Shown: in pieces, positions 5,465 to 10,765 of the stretch | Numbering within the stretch: position 1 is the stretch's first letter | Layout of the letters: each line of letters begins with the position of its first letter | Source of the DNA: Chryseobacterium gleum | Lineage (GTDB): Bacteria; Bacteroidota; Bacteroidia; Flavobacteriales; Weeksellaceae | Direction: 5' to 3' | DNA: 64,000 nucleotides | NCBI RefSeq assembly: GCF_900636535.1 | Contig: NZ_LR134289.1 | Span: forward strand, 2,666,001-2,730,000 | The notes under the pieces: model-generated | The model's input: only the letters and a program-made list of their open reading frames with translations | What the model was told of the DNA's origin: nothing | Databases searched by the model: none | Made by a program: the position numbers and the translations under genes

Positions 5465-5549
5465 AGATAGATACGAGGTACGAGGTGCGTGATTCTTATT
5501 TCTAAGAATGCAACACCAAACTCGAAACCCGTAACCCGAAATCAAAAAA
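5465..5549. repeat. Micro-repeat spacer (CGAGGTACGAGG / ACTCGAAACCCG)
   Basis: The spacer has tandem-like purine units around CGAGGTACGAGGTGCG on the left and loosely complementary units (ACTCGAAACCCGTAACCCG) on the right. It resembles the spacers at 6114-6217 and 45093-45233. It is probably a dispersed low-complexity element and not coding. Confidence 0.5.
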
Positions 5550-6217: not shown

Positions 6218-7237
6218 ATGAGTACCGAAACATTAGAAAAAGCTAAATCTGCAATTCCTGTAAGGGGATTTCTGGATATAAAAGATATTGCTATTCCTCA
6301 GGGAGAAGAACTGGTGAAAGCCATTCTTAAGCTTAAAGAGGAAAAGAATGCTGTTATTCTGGCCCATTACTACCAGCCGGGAGAAATTCAGGATATCGCT
6401 GATTTTCTTGGAGATTCTTTACAGCTGGCAAGACAGGCAAAAGACACTAATGCTGATATGATCGTATTCTGCGGAGTACATTTCATGGCAGAAGCCGCTA
6501 AAATTCTGAACCCGACCAAAAAAGTAGTTCTTCCTGACACCATGGCAGGATGCTCACTGGCAGACGGTTGTTCCGGAGAAGGACTGAGAAAAATGCGTGA
6601 GCAACACCCGAATGCTTTAATTGCCACTTACATCAACTGTAATGCGGAAACCAAAGCAGAAAGTGATATTATCGTAACAAGCTCCAATGCGGAAACAGTT
6701 ATTGAGGCCCTTCCGAAAGACAGACCAATTATCTTTGCTCCGGACAAAAACCTGGGAAGATATTTATCTAAAAAAACAGGACGTGATATGATCCTTTGGG
6801 ATGGAAGCTGTGTAGTACACGAAGCTTTTTCAATGGAAAGAATTGCACAGCAATTGGCAGACAATCCGGATGCAAAACTAATTGCCCACCCTGAAAGTGA
6901 AGAAGCTGTTTTAAAGCTGGCTCATTTTATAGGTTCTACTTCTGCCTTGCTGAATTATGTGGAAAAAGACGACTGCCAGAAATTCATTATCGCTACAGAA
7001 GAAGGAATTCTTCACGAAATGAAAAAACGCGCTCCTCACAAGGAATTGATCCCTGCTCTGGTTTTTGACGAAAGCTGCAACTGTTCAGAATGTTTTTACA
7101 TGAAACGTAATACCATGGAAAAATTGTATCTGTGCATGAAGTATGAGCTTCCTGAAATTCTTATCGACGAAGAATTAAGATTAAAAGCATTGAAGCCTAT
7201 TGAAGCCATGCTTGATCTTTCTAAAAGTATAAAATAA
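6218..7237 (+). CDS. nadA: Quinolinate synthase A
   Basis: This [4Fe-4S] enzyme condenses iminoaspartate with dihydroxyacetone phosphate to quinolinate in de novo NAD synthesis. It has 339 residues. Family motifs include AVILAHYYQPGEIQDIADF (substrate-binding His/Tyr), IVFCGVHFMAEAAKIL (first cluster Cys), YINCNAETKA, VTSSNA, and the C-terminal CNCSECFYMKRNT segment carrying further cluster Cys residues. L-aspartate oxidase (nadB) and nadC are not in this window. A bidirectional terminator at 7272 closes the unit. Confidence 0.96.
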   Translation: MSTETLEKAKSAIPVRGFLDIKDIAIPQGEELVKAILKLKEEKNAVILAHYYQPGEIQDIADFLGDSLQLARQAKDTNADMIVFCGVHFMAEAAKILNPTKKVVLPDTMAGCSLADGCSGEGLRKMREQHPNALIATYINCNAETKAESDIIVTSSNAETVIEALPKDRPIIFAPDKNLGRYLSKKTGRDMILWDGSCVVHEAFSMERIAQQLADNPDAKLIAHPESEEAVLKLAHFIGSTSALLNYVEKDDCQKFIIATEEGILHEMKKRAPHKELIPALVFDESCNCSECFYMKRNTMEKLYLCMKYELPEILIDEELRLKALKPIEAMLDLSKSIK

Positions 7238-7271: not shown

Positions 7272-7300
7272 AAAGCACTGTTCTTCACAGTGCTTTCTTA
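7272..7300. terminator. Bidirectional terminator between nadA and the peptide cluster
   Basis: AAAGCACTGT (7272-7281) pairs perfectly with ACAGTGCTTT (7287-7296) around a 5-base loop. An A-tract lies on the left and a T-rich tail on the right, so it can stop nadA transcription and the convergent peptide genes. Confidence 0.85.
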
Positions 7301-7320: not shown

Positions 7321-7527
7321 TTAAGATACTCCTCCGTCCACGCATTCTATGCTCACCAGAACACACATCTTACAATAATCAGGAAGTCCCTGATATGCAG
7401 CACAGGAATACTGATACCCCGGACCATCTCCAAATGTAGCATTCTGCGGACATCCTGCACATCTTGACGGGCCGGCTCCGTTTATTCTTTCAAGCTCTTT
7501 TCGGTTTAATTTCTTTATATTTTTCAT
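7321..7527 (-). CDS. Double-glycine-leader Cys-rich peptide A (bacteriocin-like)
   Basis: This is a 68-residue precursor-like peptide. The leader MKNIKKLNRKELERINGA ends in a Gly-Ala processing motif of the kind cut by C39 peptidase-transporters. The core of about 50 residues has six Cys (CAGC, SCAAY, CKMC, IEC). I chose the ATG at 7527 because the leader there aligns with the two neighbouring genes; the open frame extends further upstream but without similarity. The core aligns with peptide C at 7790 (C..C, GPG, SCA.Y..LP, VLVS.EC.D). Function is unknown: it could be a bacteriocin, a signalling peptide or a modified-peptide precursor. No maturase or transporter gene is next to it. Confidence 0.75.
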   Translation of the reverse strand: MKNIKKLNRKELERINGAGPSRCAGCPQNATFGDGPGYQYSCAAYQGLPDYCKMCVLVSIECVDGGVS

Positions 7528-7565
7528 AGTCATTTTAATTTTTAACTGATTTAACATACCAATAC

Positions 7566-7736
7566 TTATAGCATGGGTGCATAACAGGTTCCTCCCGGTT
7601 TCCGCCAGCATCCCCATTGTCCACCTCCGCGGAAACATACAAACTGTTCACCACCACAAGCTTCAATCTGGATATCAGTGAATCCTCCGGTGATACTTTT
7701 CTTTTGTTCACGTGATAATTTTTTAATTGTTTTCAT
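7566..7736 (-). CDS. Double-glycine-leader Cys/Gly-rich peptide B
   Basis: This 56-residue ORF lies between the two similar genes. The leader MKTIKKLSREQKKSITGG is a clear relative of its neighbours' leaders and ends in Gly-Gly. The core is different from the other two. It is about 38 residues, rich in Gly and Trp, with four Cys (EACGGEQFVC, WGCWRKPGG, TCYAPML). The start at 7736 is fixed by the leader match. Spacing to the flanking genes is about 40-55 bp, so the three are probably co-transcribed. The function is unknown, but the conserved leader with variable core is typical of secreted peptide families. Confidence 0.72.
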   Translation of the reverse strand: MKTIKKLSREQKKSITGGFTDIQIEACGGEQFVCFRGGGQWGCWRKPGGTCYAPML

Positions 7737-7789
7737 ACGTTTTAATTTTAAGATTAGAAATAAGATTATTATTGTTTATGGATTAAAAA

Positions 7790-7984
7790 TCAATACGGAT
7801 CAAAACATTCAAAACTAACCAGTACTCTTCCTTTACAGCATGGTGGTAAGGCGTGATAATCTGCACACGACTTTGGTTCACCTGGTCCATATGGCCCCGC
7901 TGGACAATACTCAAAACAATCATTCACATCTCCTCCACTGATAGATTTTAGATTTTTGCGATTCACTTTTTTAAAATTTTTCAT
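7790..7984 (-). CDS. Double-glycine-leader Cys-rich peptide C (bacteriocin-like)
   Basis: This is a 64-residue precursor-like peptide with leader MKNFKKVNRKNLKSISGG (ending Gly-Gly) and a six-Cys core (DCFEYCP, SCADY, PCCKG, FEC). The start at 7984 is preferred to an upstream in-frame ATG at 8032 because it aligns the leader with peptides A and B. The core is homologous to that of peptide A, so A and C are paralogues with B between them. It is the first gene of the minus-strand cluster, and a promoter-like TATATTTG lies about 55 bp upstream. Confidence 0.75.
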   Translation of the reverse strand: MKNFKKVNRKNLKSISGGDVNDCFEYCPAGPYGPGEPKSCADYHALPPCCKGRVLVSFECFDPY

Positions 7985-8038
7985 GGTTACATTTATTATA
8001 GTTAGAATCCTAAATATAAGATTTTTAATCAATTACAA

Positions 8039-8066
8039 CAAATATATCTCTAAAAAAGGAAATAAA
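8039..8066 (-). promoter_or_regulatory. Predicted promoter of the peptide cluster
   Basis: On the minus strand, TATATTTG (8046 to 8039) fits the Bacteroidota -7 consensus TAnnTTTG. A TTT at 8066-8064, 17 bases upstream, is a weak -33. Transcription would start about 50 bases before peptide C. Confidence 0.45.
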
Positions 8067-8084
8067 TTTTATAGTATTAAAAAG

Positions 8085-8114
8085 TTGGCCGTTTCAAAAT
8101 AATTTGTACATTTG
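8085..8114 (+). promoter_or_regulatory. Threonine operon promoter
   Basis: TTG (8085-8087), a spacer of exactly 19 bases and TACATTTG (8107-8114) match the Bacteroidota consensus TTG-N19-TAnnTTTG very well. The expected start point, a few bases after 8114, lies almost at the leader peptide ATG (8125), so the leader mRNA would have a very short or no 5' UTR. Confidence 0.75.
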
Positions 8115-8124
8115 TTCCGTTACA

Positions 8125-8226
8125 ATGAATTTATTAAGAAACATATCTGATATTTCTGCCCTGAAATCGCTTATTTCAGGCATATCTTCTGTTTCTACAT
8201 TCACAACTACAACAACTACCCCATAA
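8125..8226 (+). CDS. Threonine operon leader peptide
   Basis: This is a 33-codon ORF just after the promoter and about 90 bp before thrA. It encodes MNLLRNISDISALKSLISGI, then SSVSTF, then six Thr in a row and a final Pro. Seven of the last nine residues are Thr, and four Ile occur earlier. The composition, position and following hairpins parallel the thrL attenuator peptide of enterobacteria, although the sequence is unrelated. By analogy, slow translation of the Thr codons (8197-8220) when charged tRNA-Thr is scarce would report the need for threonine synthesis. Translation itself is inferred. Confidence 0.75.
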   Translation: MNLLRNISDISALKSLISGISSVSTFTTTTTTP

Positions 8227-8297
8227 CGGGGTAAATTTTCACATATTATTTCCGGTACCCGTACTCTTTTTTCAAAGAGTAACTACTTCTTTTTATC
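8160..8297 (+). promoter_or_regulatory. Putative transcription attenuator of the thr operon
   Basis: Three hairpins follow one another. Hairpin 1 lies inside the leader gene: CCTGAAAT (8160-8167) with ATTTCAGG (8173-8180). Hairpin 2 is TACCCC (8217-8222) with GGGGTA (8228-8233), overlapping the last Thr codons and the stop. Hairpin 3 is TACTCTTT (8262-8269) with AAAGAGTA (8274-8281), followed by a T-rich stretch and so terminator-like. The GGGTA arm of hairpin 2 can instead pair with TACCC at 8256-8260, which gives a possible switch. A ribosome stalled on the Thr codons would cover the left arm of hairpin 2. The structure is predicted by eye. Confidence 0.6.
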
Positions 8298-8317: not shown

Positions 8318-10765
8318 ATGAAAGTTTTAAAATTCGGCGGAACATCAGTCGCTCATTCTCAAAATATCTTACTGGTGGAAAAAATCATAAAAAGTGAATC
8401 TGTAAAAAACAGAGTTGTCGTAATTGTATCAGCGCTTCATGGTGTTACAGATCAATTGATCAAAGCAGCTGAAAATGCTTCTGTAAAAGATGAAAAGTAT
8501 ATTCAGATCATTCAAAACCTTGAGGAAAAACATATTAACTTAGTGAAAGAACTTTTTCCTATTGCAGAACAAAGTTCATGGCTGAGTTTTGTGAAGAAAC
8601 ATTTTAATGATATTGAAGACCTTTGTAACGGAATCTCTGTTCTTGGTGAGCTTACCTGCAGAATCAAAGATAAAATTGCTTCTTACGGAGAATTTCTGTC
8701 TTCCAAAATTATTACCGCAAGACTACAGCATCAAGAACTGGACTGTGTGTGGATGAATTCCGCAGACCTTATCAGAACAGACAGTAATTTCACTCATGCC
8801 AAAGTAGATTTGGGTTGTACTGAAAAGAATATTGTCAGTTTTCTCAATGAAAATCAGAACCGTATCATTGTAGGCCCGGGTTTTATAGCCAGCGATGAAA
8901 AAAATAATGCGACAACACTGGGAAGGGGCGGTTCAGATTACACAGCTTCTATCATTGCAGCTTCTGTTCATGCGGAAGAGCTTCAGATATGGACTGACGT
9001 CAGCGGAATGATGACTGCAGATCCCCGTCTTGCTTCCAATGCCAAGCCTATTTCAGAAATATCTTATCATGAAGCAATGGAGCTGTCCCACTTTGGAGCA
9101 AAAGTGCTTTATCCACCTTCCATTCAGCCTGTTATGGTTAAAAATATTGATCTGATCATCAAAAACACGTTTGATCCTGATGCTCAGGGAACTTTAATTT
9201 CTCATCAGCTTAAATCTTTTGAGAATGAAAGGCAGGTTGCGGTAGGAATTTCAAATATGAACCATATTGCCCTGCTTACCCTGGAAGGCAGCGGAATGGT
9301 TGGAATTCCCGGTATTTCGGCAAAATTATTCCAATGCTTAAGTCAGGAAAAAATAAATATAATTCTGATTACCCAAGGATCTTCAGAACATTCCATTACT
9401 GTCGCCATTGAAGAAAAAGATGCTTTACGGGCTGAATATTCAATCAACAGTTCCTTTGCTGATGATATCAACCTGAAAAGAGTTTTTCCTGTAAAAATTG
9501 AGACCGGTCTTTCCATTGTGGCTTTAGTAGGAGAAAATATGAAAAGCAGAAGCGGAGTCAGCGCAAAGATGTTTGGATGTCTCGGAAATAACGGCATCAA
9601 TATAAGGGCTATTGCACAGGGATCCTCTGAAAGAAATATCAGTATTGTCATTTCAGAAAAAGACAGTAAAAAAGCGGTGAATGTACTTCATGAAGAATTC
9701 TTTGAATCTGAAATCAAGCAGATCCATCTTTATATCTGCGGAACAGGGAATGTAGGTTCAAAACTGGTCCAGCAAATTTATAATCAGAATGATTATTTAA
9801 AGGAAAATTTTTTAATCAATCTGAGAATTGCAGGAATTTCCAACAGTCAACATATGCTATTTGCGGATCAGGGGATATCTGAAGAAAATTACCTTACCTG
9901 GGATCAGCAGGGACAAAAAGCTTCTGCCGGAAAATTTGCTGAAGAAATCATCCGCAGGAATCTGAGGAACTCTGTTTTTGTTGATGTAACGGCAAGTGCT
10001 GATGTTCCGGAAATTTATGAAAGTTTACTGAAGAGAAGTGTGAATATTGTTGCCTGTAATAAAATTGCAGCTTCTTCAGATTTTAAACAATATAAAACAT
10101 TAAAAGACACTGCAAGAAATCACAACTGCAATTTTTATTTTGAAACCAATGTAGGTGCCGGGCTTCCGGTTATAGGAACCATTAACGACCTGATCAAAAG
10201 CGGAGATAAAATCCAATCTATTAAAGCTGTATTAAGTGGAACATTGAATTTTGTCTTTAATGAGTATGACGGCAGCAGAACATTTTCTGAAGTGGTAGCA
10301 CAGGCTCAGAAGGAAGGATACACAGAACCGGATCCGAGACTTGATCTTTCCGGAAAGGATGTGGCAAGAAAAATTTTAATTCTGGCAAGAGAGGCAGGAT
10401 ATCCGCTTCAGTTTGAAGAAATTGAAAATATCAGTTTTCTACCGGAAGAATGCATGGAGGGAAGTGTTGATAATTTTTATGAAAAGCTTACAACGTATGA
10501 AGATCATTTTAAAAACTTACTAAATAACGCCAAAAACGAAGGTAAAATACTAAAATATGTTGCAGAGTTTGAAGATGGAAAAGCTAAGGTGGGATTACAG
10601 CATATTGCTCCCGAAAGTGATCTGTTTCATCTTTATGGTAAAGATAATATTGTCATTTTCAAAACCTTGAGATATTCTGAACAACCATTGGTTGTAAAAG
10701 GAGCAGGTGCCGGAGCTGATGTAACAGCAAGCGGAGTTTTTGCAGATATAATCCGTTCTATTTAA
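8318..10765 (+). CDS. thrA: Bifunctional aspartate kinase / homoserine dehydrogenase I
   Basis: The enzyme catalyses the first and third steps from aspartate to threonine and methionine. The 815 residues give two domains. The N-terminal aspartokinase (KFGGTSVA at 3-10, GRGGSDYTA near 210) is followed by paired ACT regulatory domains (about 310-455), where threonine would bind for feedback inhibition. The C-terminal homoserine dehydrogenase runs from about 465, with nucleotide-binding GTGNVGSK and the catalytic region GLPVIGTINDLI and GYTEPDPRLDLSGKDVARK. I chose the ATG at 8318 over the TTG just before it. It is first in thrABC and lies behind the putative attenuator. Confidence 0.96.
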   Translation: MKVLKFGGTSVAHSQNILLVEKIIKSESVKNRVVVIVSALHGVTDQLIKAAENASVKDEKYIQIIQNLEEKHINLVKELFPIAEQSSWLSFVKKHFNDIEDLCNGISVLGELTCRIKDKIASYGEFLSSKIITARLQHQELDCVWMNSADLIRTDSNFTHAKVDLGCTEKNIVSFLNENQNRIIVGPGFIASDEKNNATTLGRGGSDYTASIIAASVHAEELQIWTDVSGMMTADPRLASNAKPISEISYHEAMELSHFGAKVLYPPSIQPVMVKNIDLIIKNTFDPDAQGTLISHQLKSFENERQVAVGISNMNHIALLTLEGSGMVGIPGISAKLFQCLSQEKINIILITQGSSEHSITVAIEEKDALRAEYSINSSFADDINLKRVFPVKIETGLSIVALVGENMKSRSGVSAKMFGCLGNNGINIRAIAQGSSERNISIVISEKDSKKAVNVLHEEFFESEIKQIHLYICGTGNVGSKLVQQIYNQNDYLKENFLINLRIAGISNSQHMLFADQGISEENYLTWDQQGQKASAGKFAEEIIRRNLRNSVFVDVTASADVPEIYESLLKRSVNIVACNKIAASSDFKQYKTLKDTARNHNCNFYFETNVGAGLPVIGTINDLIKSGDKIQSIKAVLSGTLNFVFNEYDGSRTFSEVVAQAQKEGYTEPDPRLDLSGKDVARKILILAREAGYPLQFEEIENISFLPEECMEGSVDNFYEKLTTYEDHFKNLLNNAKNEGKILKYVAEFEDGKAKVGLQHIAPESDLFHLYGKDNIVIFKTLRYSEQPLVVKGAGAGADVTASGVFADIIRSI

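Follow-up and report, generated by a model that had tools for sequence, protein, structure and literature searches.

Three cysteine-rich double-glycine peptides beside nadA in Chryseobacterium gleum and a candidate maturation hub elsewhere in the genome

Three precursor genes between nadA and thrA

A cluster of tiny genes in Chryseobacterium gleum, read in a first-pass annotation as three exported or modified peptides with no visible maturation genes, raises the question of which machinery could mature such products and what they might do. The window, the whole 64,000-nucleotide stretch of DNA that was analysed, spans positions 2,666,001-2,730,000 of the 5.6-Mb single-contig genome. As proposed, three consecutive small genes are present, in the form of minus-strand ORFs that follow one another directly in the order C, B, A within the nadA-thrA interval. 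The gene names nadA, thrA, thrB and gmk are our own readings of the sequences rather than tool annotations. In window coordinates, the features are:

6218-7237, plus strand: nadA, read from the sequence
7272..7296, both strands: terminator-like hairpin of 10 pairs, from a hairpin scan
7321..7527, minus strand: peptide A precursor, 68 aa (18-aa GA leader and 50-aa core)
7566..7736, minus strand: peptide B precursor, 56 aa (18-aa GG leader and 38-aa core)
7790..7984, minus strand: peptide C precursor, 64 aa (18-aa GG leader and 46-aa core)
7985..8104, minus strand: upstream region of peptide C, alike in orthologous loci
ATG at 8318, plus strand: thrA, read from the sequence

With gaps of 53 bp from C to B and 38 bp from B to A, the three genes probably form one small operon, presumably read as a single transcript, for precursors of secreted disulfide-bonded peptides. 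The hairpin at 7272-7296, with a T-run after its minus-strand stem, separates the 3' ends of nadA and of the peptide genes, and the region 7985..8104 is the probable promoter region of peptide C. Comparison by eye revealed a TAnnTTTG box, which we take to be a promoter-region motif, beginning at -61/-62 in six of 11 upstream regions, the other five lacking it. No Rfam element reached its gathering score between positions 5500 and 11000.

On the plus strand just upstream of thrA, a Thr-rich leader-peptide ORF (8125-8226) ends in TTTTTTP, and a hairpin flagged on the minus strand (8216-8234) lies near its end. A similar Thr-rich ORF was found upstream of thrA in 40 of 41 loci. The ORF is perhaps a threonine attenuator, one without an Rfam match.

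The leader family and a distant exporter-oxidase operon

The ORFs and leader-matrix scores both bore out the proposed common leader, which has 18 residues and ends in GG (B and C) or GA (A). Trained on 20 leaders from elsewhere in the genome, with the window genes excluded, a matrix gave scores of 38.2, 34.1 and 32.1 for the three window leaders and 2.1 for the next window ORF; the best score in 20 mononucleotide shuffles of the window, for which the window leaders were part of the matrix, was 7.4. The NCBIfam model NF047798 (NF047798.1 leader_Chryseo, "bacteriocin-like protein") matched all three precursors over its 18 positions. Peptides C (30.2 bits) and B (27.9 bits) are clear members, above the cut-off of 23.5, and A is a borderline one, scoring 23.2 bits as a protein, 0.3 under the cut-off, and 24.5 bits in a six-frame search. 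The precursor type, having a curated NCBIfam domain as its leader, is already catalogued.

Leader relatives, for which the first-pass annotation had suggested a genome-wide search, were found: NF047798 gave 40 matches at E up to 1, 24 of them above the cut-off, two of these 24 counting only together with neighbouring residues. We examined 21 stretches of the genome, the window included; this set leaves out three weakly matching places (3-kb loci) and all but one of the last ten of the 40 matches. Twenty-five precursors scored above 18 with the leader matrix, 20 of whose leaders had been used to build it. Two stretches (L049 and L052) held no precursor by the matrix, though the place in L049 exceeds the NF047798 cut-off. 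Because the 18-residue matrix overlooks relatives of A and C with 15-residue or shifted leaders, all peptide counts given here are lower bounds; cysteine counts cover matrix-positive precursors.

Two other sets of leader-bearing precursors in this genome differ in appearance. The same leader stands on a 94-aa Gly/Val-rich precursor with four cysteines near its end, unlike the other cores (L040:5031-5315), and three tandem leader peptides (L041:5354-5972) have a C-C-CC-C-C spacing that resembles that of knottins.

The claim that maturation genes are missing was correct locally but not genome-wide. Peptidase C39 is absent from the window and occurs at two places in the genome, both more than 1.5 Mb away. 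One of them is an operon at 4.23-4.24 Mb, 1.56 Mb from A, B and C, that encodes a 504-aa VKOR-thioredoxin fusion, a C39 peptidase/ABC exporter, a leader peptide (NF047798 score 20.8 bits, under the cut-off) and a HlyD-type adaptor; we refer to this operon as the hub. The other, at 4.36 Mb (L034:5628-11476), lies beside a radical SAM/SPASM enzyme (best model TIGR04463, under its cut-off) and four small ORFs that contain cysteines and carry a leader of another type (MKNKKL...). Both marks of a double-glycine C39 substrate, a leader ending in GG or GA and a C39 exporter in the genome, are therefore present, which supports the proposal of exported double-glycine peptides; that proposal had been said to fall if leader relatives and C39 exporters were lacking, and relatives and two such exporters exist. 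The hub is favoured because its leader is shared with A, B and C, and the second exporter could be an alternative.

Exporter loci drawn from genomes of the same genus revealed close linkage of leader and hub, a complete locus being one with VKOR, C39 and HlyD genes on one stretch. Leader peptides were contained in 49 of the 55 complete loci (that of C. gleum included), and six had none. All 129 leader peptides inside them lay on the operon strand, 81 between the VKOR and C39 genes and 48 between the C39 and HlyD genes. Identity to the C. gleum hub was 87-99% for the exporter and 59-96% for the VKOR fusion; the count leaves aside one locus whose VKOR protein is only 23% identical (L108) and the hubs of two genomes (G033 and G018) that are split over contigs.

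Leader and hub also co-occur. At E 0.001 the leader was detected in 56 of 60 same-genus genomes, and a VKOR orthologue (at least 59% identity) in 57 of 60, interrupted in G038. The orthologue was present in 56 of 56 genomes with the leader and in one of four without it (Fisher p 1.2e-4). Among 120 genomes of the family, 21 had both, two the leader only (one weak match each), six any VKOR match only and 91 neither (p 5e-16, or 6e-8 without the own genus); these Fisher tests ignore relatedness, and G115, counted among the 21, combines one leader match with a VKOR match of only 25%. Three of the leaderless same-genus genomes (G011, G053 and G057) lack the VKOR orthologue. The fourth, G029, keeps the hub (VKOR 60%, C39 87%, HlyD 81%) with no leader match above the cut-off and, at a laxer limit, two weak matches under it (E 0.008 and 0.09). 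G053 keeps the C39 and HlyD orthologues with neither leader nor VKOR orthologue. Hub and leader peptides are thus not inseparable, as G029, G053 and the six empty hubs indicate. In G053, a different double-glycine peptide adjoins a distant VKOR paralogue near the C39 and HlyD orthologues (L108:9350-11094).

Homology, linkage and co-occurrence together suggest that the hub recognizes the leader and carries out cleavage, export and oxidation, a maturation route that we consider likely; export in trans, as first proposed, is probably right. The shared leader would be read by the C39 domain of this single exporter, which is predicted to cut after Gly-Gly or Gly-Ala and to export the core through the inner membrane. 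Disulfide formation would fall to the neighbouring VKOR-thioredoxin fusion, and transfer of the peptide to an outer-membrane channel to the HlyD adaptor. By this mechanism, one hub could serve the approximately 25 precursors of the genome.

Core families, selection and the nest beside nadA

The cores of A and C have six cysteines each, spaced C-x2-C ... CxxC-x6-C in A and C-x3-C ... CC-x9-C in C, and that of B is rich in Gly and Trp with four. Iterated profile searches grouped A and C, first proposed to be paralogous, in one family and B in another: the A/C family comprised 79 unique precursors, all with six cysteines, and the B family 31, all with four, and no precursor was common to both. 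With named genomes included, all 112 unique A/C cores had six cysteines, 58 with the spacing of A and 54 with that of C; this count excludes A/C relatives with 15-residue or shifted leaders, some of which have other cysteine spacings. A/C relatives with 15-residue leaders (MKKLSR...) occur in nadA-thrA intervals, for example at L063:3643-4098 and L061:5037-5496.

An even number of cysteines is thus kept in both families (112 of 112 and 31 of 31), and the same tendency was found among all loci examined, most of which were picked for peptide C relatives or for the hub and so are not a random sample: the 321 precursors gave 308 unique cores, of which 299 had a non-zero even number, eight an odd number and one none. 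Clustering at 55% likeness left 96 clusters (91 even, four odd, one none), and all 25 precursors of C. gleum were even. This parity and the VKOR-thioredoxin protein in the linked operon are the main evidence pointing to disulfides.

Peptides A, B and C had no Pfam match up to E 1, and the A/C and B core profiles no match among PDB sequences up to E 10. A structure model of the A/C core, of moderate confidence, matched no PDB fold. Without a match in the libraries searched, both cores may represent new scaffolds of Gram-negative origin.

The pattern of conserved leader and diverging core that the first-pass annotation emphasized applies between paralogues; between the orthologues compared, cores are well conserved. 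For hand-picked orthologues of equal length from close relatives, core pN/pS (uncorrected, and rough because pS reaches 0.76 in some pairs) was 0.09-0.18 for C (six comparisons), 0-0.20 for B (seven) and 0.05 for A (one). Leader values were 0-0.25 with two exceptions: a B leader gave 0.97 on a single synonymous change, and a C leader had no synonymous change at all. The cores of A, B and C are under purifying selection, which indicates that the genes are real and translated and that their cores are kept.

The surroundings of nadA form a nest of such genes across the genus. The 55 loci sampled (the window and 54 same-genus genomes, 49 chosen by the best peptide C match of the genome and five by thrB) held at least 158 leader peptides by the matrix, from zero to eight per locus and none in three. 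At least 44 were of type A, 33 of type B, 36 of type C and 45 of other types. In the 49 genomes, about 3 kb at most separated the best C match from nadA, except in L092, where the contig ends and the match adjoins thrA. In three genomes (G017, G026 and G027) the best C match listed was located elsewhere, two (G021 and G041) had weak C matches only, and five (G011, G029, G031, G053 and G057) had none at E 0.01. Relatives of B were found at 35 or more named loci, all titled Chryseobacterium; among the matches listed, nadA adjoins B in 34 of 35 loci, the remaining one being a partial match at 45%.

Both nadA and thrA flanked 40 intervals, of which 37 held a total of 124 peptides, 108 encoded on the strand opposite nadA and 16 on the same strand. 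Nest content differs between genomes, and an obligate three-peptide system was rejected, since the 55 loci carried ABC (19), A (11), BC (6), AC (6), C (5), B (3), AB (2) or none (3), counts that overlook relatives with shorter leaders. ORFs of at least 90 aa were present in three of the 40 intervals. Among 77 non-peptide ORFs of at least 40 aa, the 25 with the widest distribution comprised 20 missed A/C relatives and five that we read as antisense to the Thr-rich leader ORF, and among these 25 no widely shared immunity-like ORF was seen. The nests of two genomes (L062 and L071) contain a 574-aa ORF, which looks like an acetolactate synthase, and a 93-aa ORF within the nadA-thrA interval.

A wider, more tentative reading is that a large set of secreted disulfide peptides is maintained in Chryseobacterium and some of its relatives. 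Dozens of different short peptides per genome, encoded all over the chromosome, would carry one 18-residue label and depend for folding and export on one VKOR-thioredoxin/C39/HlyD hub, with the A/C core as a new disulfide fold and the nadA site as a conserved nest with gene turnover.

Possible functions and comparison with known systems

We propose that A, B and C are bacteroidetocin-like, disulfide-bonded secreted peptides with antibacterial activity that are matured in trans by the hub, a composite reading to which we give about even odds. Given the maturation route, antibacterial use is reasonably likely, a judgement that follows from the likeness to bacteroidetocins; the mature peptides would most plausibly inhibit other bacteria and, like bacteroidetocins, have no immunity gene next to them.

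A less likely but substantial alternative is that peptides matured by the same route serve as signals or have some other extracellular role, such as inhibiting proteases or acting against eukaryotic grazers. The low pN/pS of B and C cores among orthologues (0-0.20), the failure to see a widely shared immunity-like ORF in the interval and the 25 or so different precursors in one genome are consistent with such roles, and the high conservation of core B would be unusual for an arms-race weapon. Against them, nest content varies between genomes as weapon repertoires do, and bacteroidetocins, too, kill without an evident immunity gene (PMC6671954). A pheromone role, one of those first suggested, found no direct evidence here and is not supported.

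It is improbable that the cysteines bind metal or carry modifications made in trans by RiPP enzymes instead of simple disulfides. An MNIO enzyme that could act on the peptides in trans is encoded once (PF05114; G000:C1:301964-302596, at 0.30 Mb), MNIO-modified RiPPs occur in Chryseobacterium according to the accessible parts of PMC10214503 and PMC12636315, and the radical SAM/SPASM enzyme adjoins the second C39 exporter. Set against this, the MNIO gene lies about 36 kb from the nearest leader match above the NF047798 cut-off, the leaders at the SPASM locus are of another type, and the excess of even cysteine numbers and the linkage of the leader to the VKOR-thioredoxin operon favour disulfides. 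LANC-like modifying enzymes were rejected, with none found in the genome at E 0.001, and the enzyme-modified role suggested initially gained no direct support. That the ORFs are spurious or decayed and untranslated is extremely improbable and was rejected on core pN/pS far below 1, with relatives of constant cysteine number across the genus outweighing the protein-scan score of A just under the NCBIfam cut-off.

Several known groups invite comparison with the proposed antibacterial, hub-matured peptides. The CCPGW family of putative bacteriocins (NF047792) has the same leader, and one further C. gleum precursor belongs to it in full (98.6 bits). Membership of A, B and C was rejected: where 80 bits are required they reach 12.7-13.9, aligning over the leader part or a few residues past it. 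Text matches to CCPGW in the literature concern, by title, cone snails, toxins for structure determination and lottery spending. Actifensins are a divergent bacteriocin family called defensin-like in the accessible part of PMC6989792; they come from Actinomyces, the A/C model matches no PDB fold, and the likeness is by description only. A listed defence-system protein was also rejected, PADLOC giving no match for the three peptides or the VKOR fusion. No description of the hub arrangement and the two core families was found in a literature search that left most subscription journals outside its reach.

A close parallel is with bacteroidetocins, the proposed class IIf bacteriocins of Bacteroidetes, which kill Bacteroidales and target BamA according to the accessible part of PMC8546649. 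Parts of the Chryseobacterium system resemble their operons, a likeness that rests on gene content and leader and not on a comparison of core sequences. In the accessible part of PMC6671954, toxin activity was weaker once the gene for the TM protein, the oxidoreductase or the peptide had been deleted, and synthetic bacteroidetocins made without disulfide formation remained potent, so that disulfides need not be functional in them. Bacteroidetocin genes occur four together, including one for a TM protein, and their leaders have 15-16 aa; here, in contrast, precursors are scattered and many per genome, the leaders of A, B and C have 18 aa, and the hub includes a HlyD adaptor. The bacteroidetocin arrangement of oxidoreductase and C39 exporter near the peptide does not hold for A, B and C, which are 1.56 Mb away, but other peptides with the same leader do sit inside the oxidoreductase/C39 operon.

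The phrase "undescribed system" in the first-pass annotation is therefore too strong, since the leader is a curated NCBIfam domain and parts of the system resemble bacteroidetocin operons. NF047798 itself is restricted to the leader and specifies neither a core nor an exporter, an oxidase or a function; our analysis turns this leader-only entry into a testable pathway, in which one exporter-oxidase operon is predicted to mature about 25 peptides in one strain. If this reading of the hub is true, loss of a single gene would reveal a whole class of secreted peptides by subtraction.
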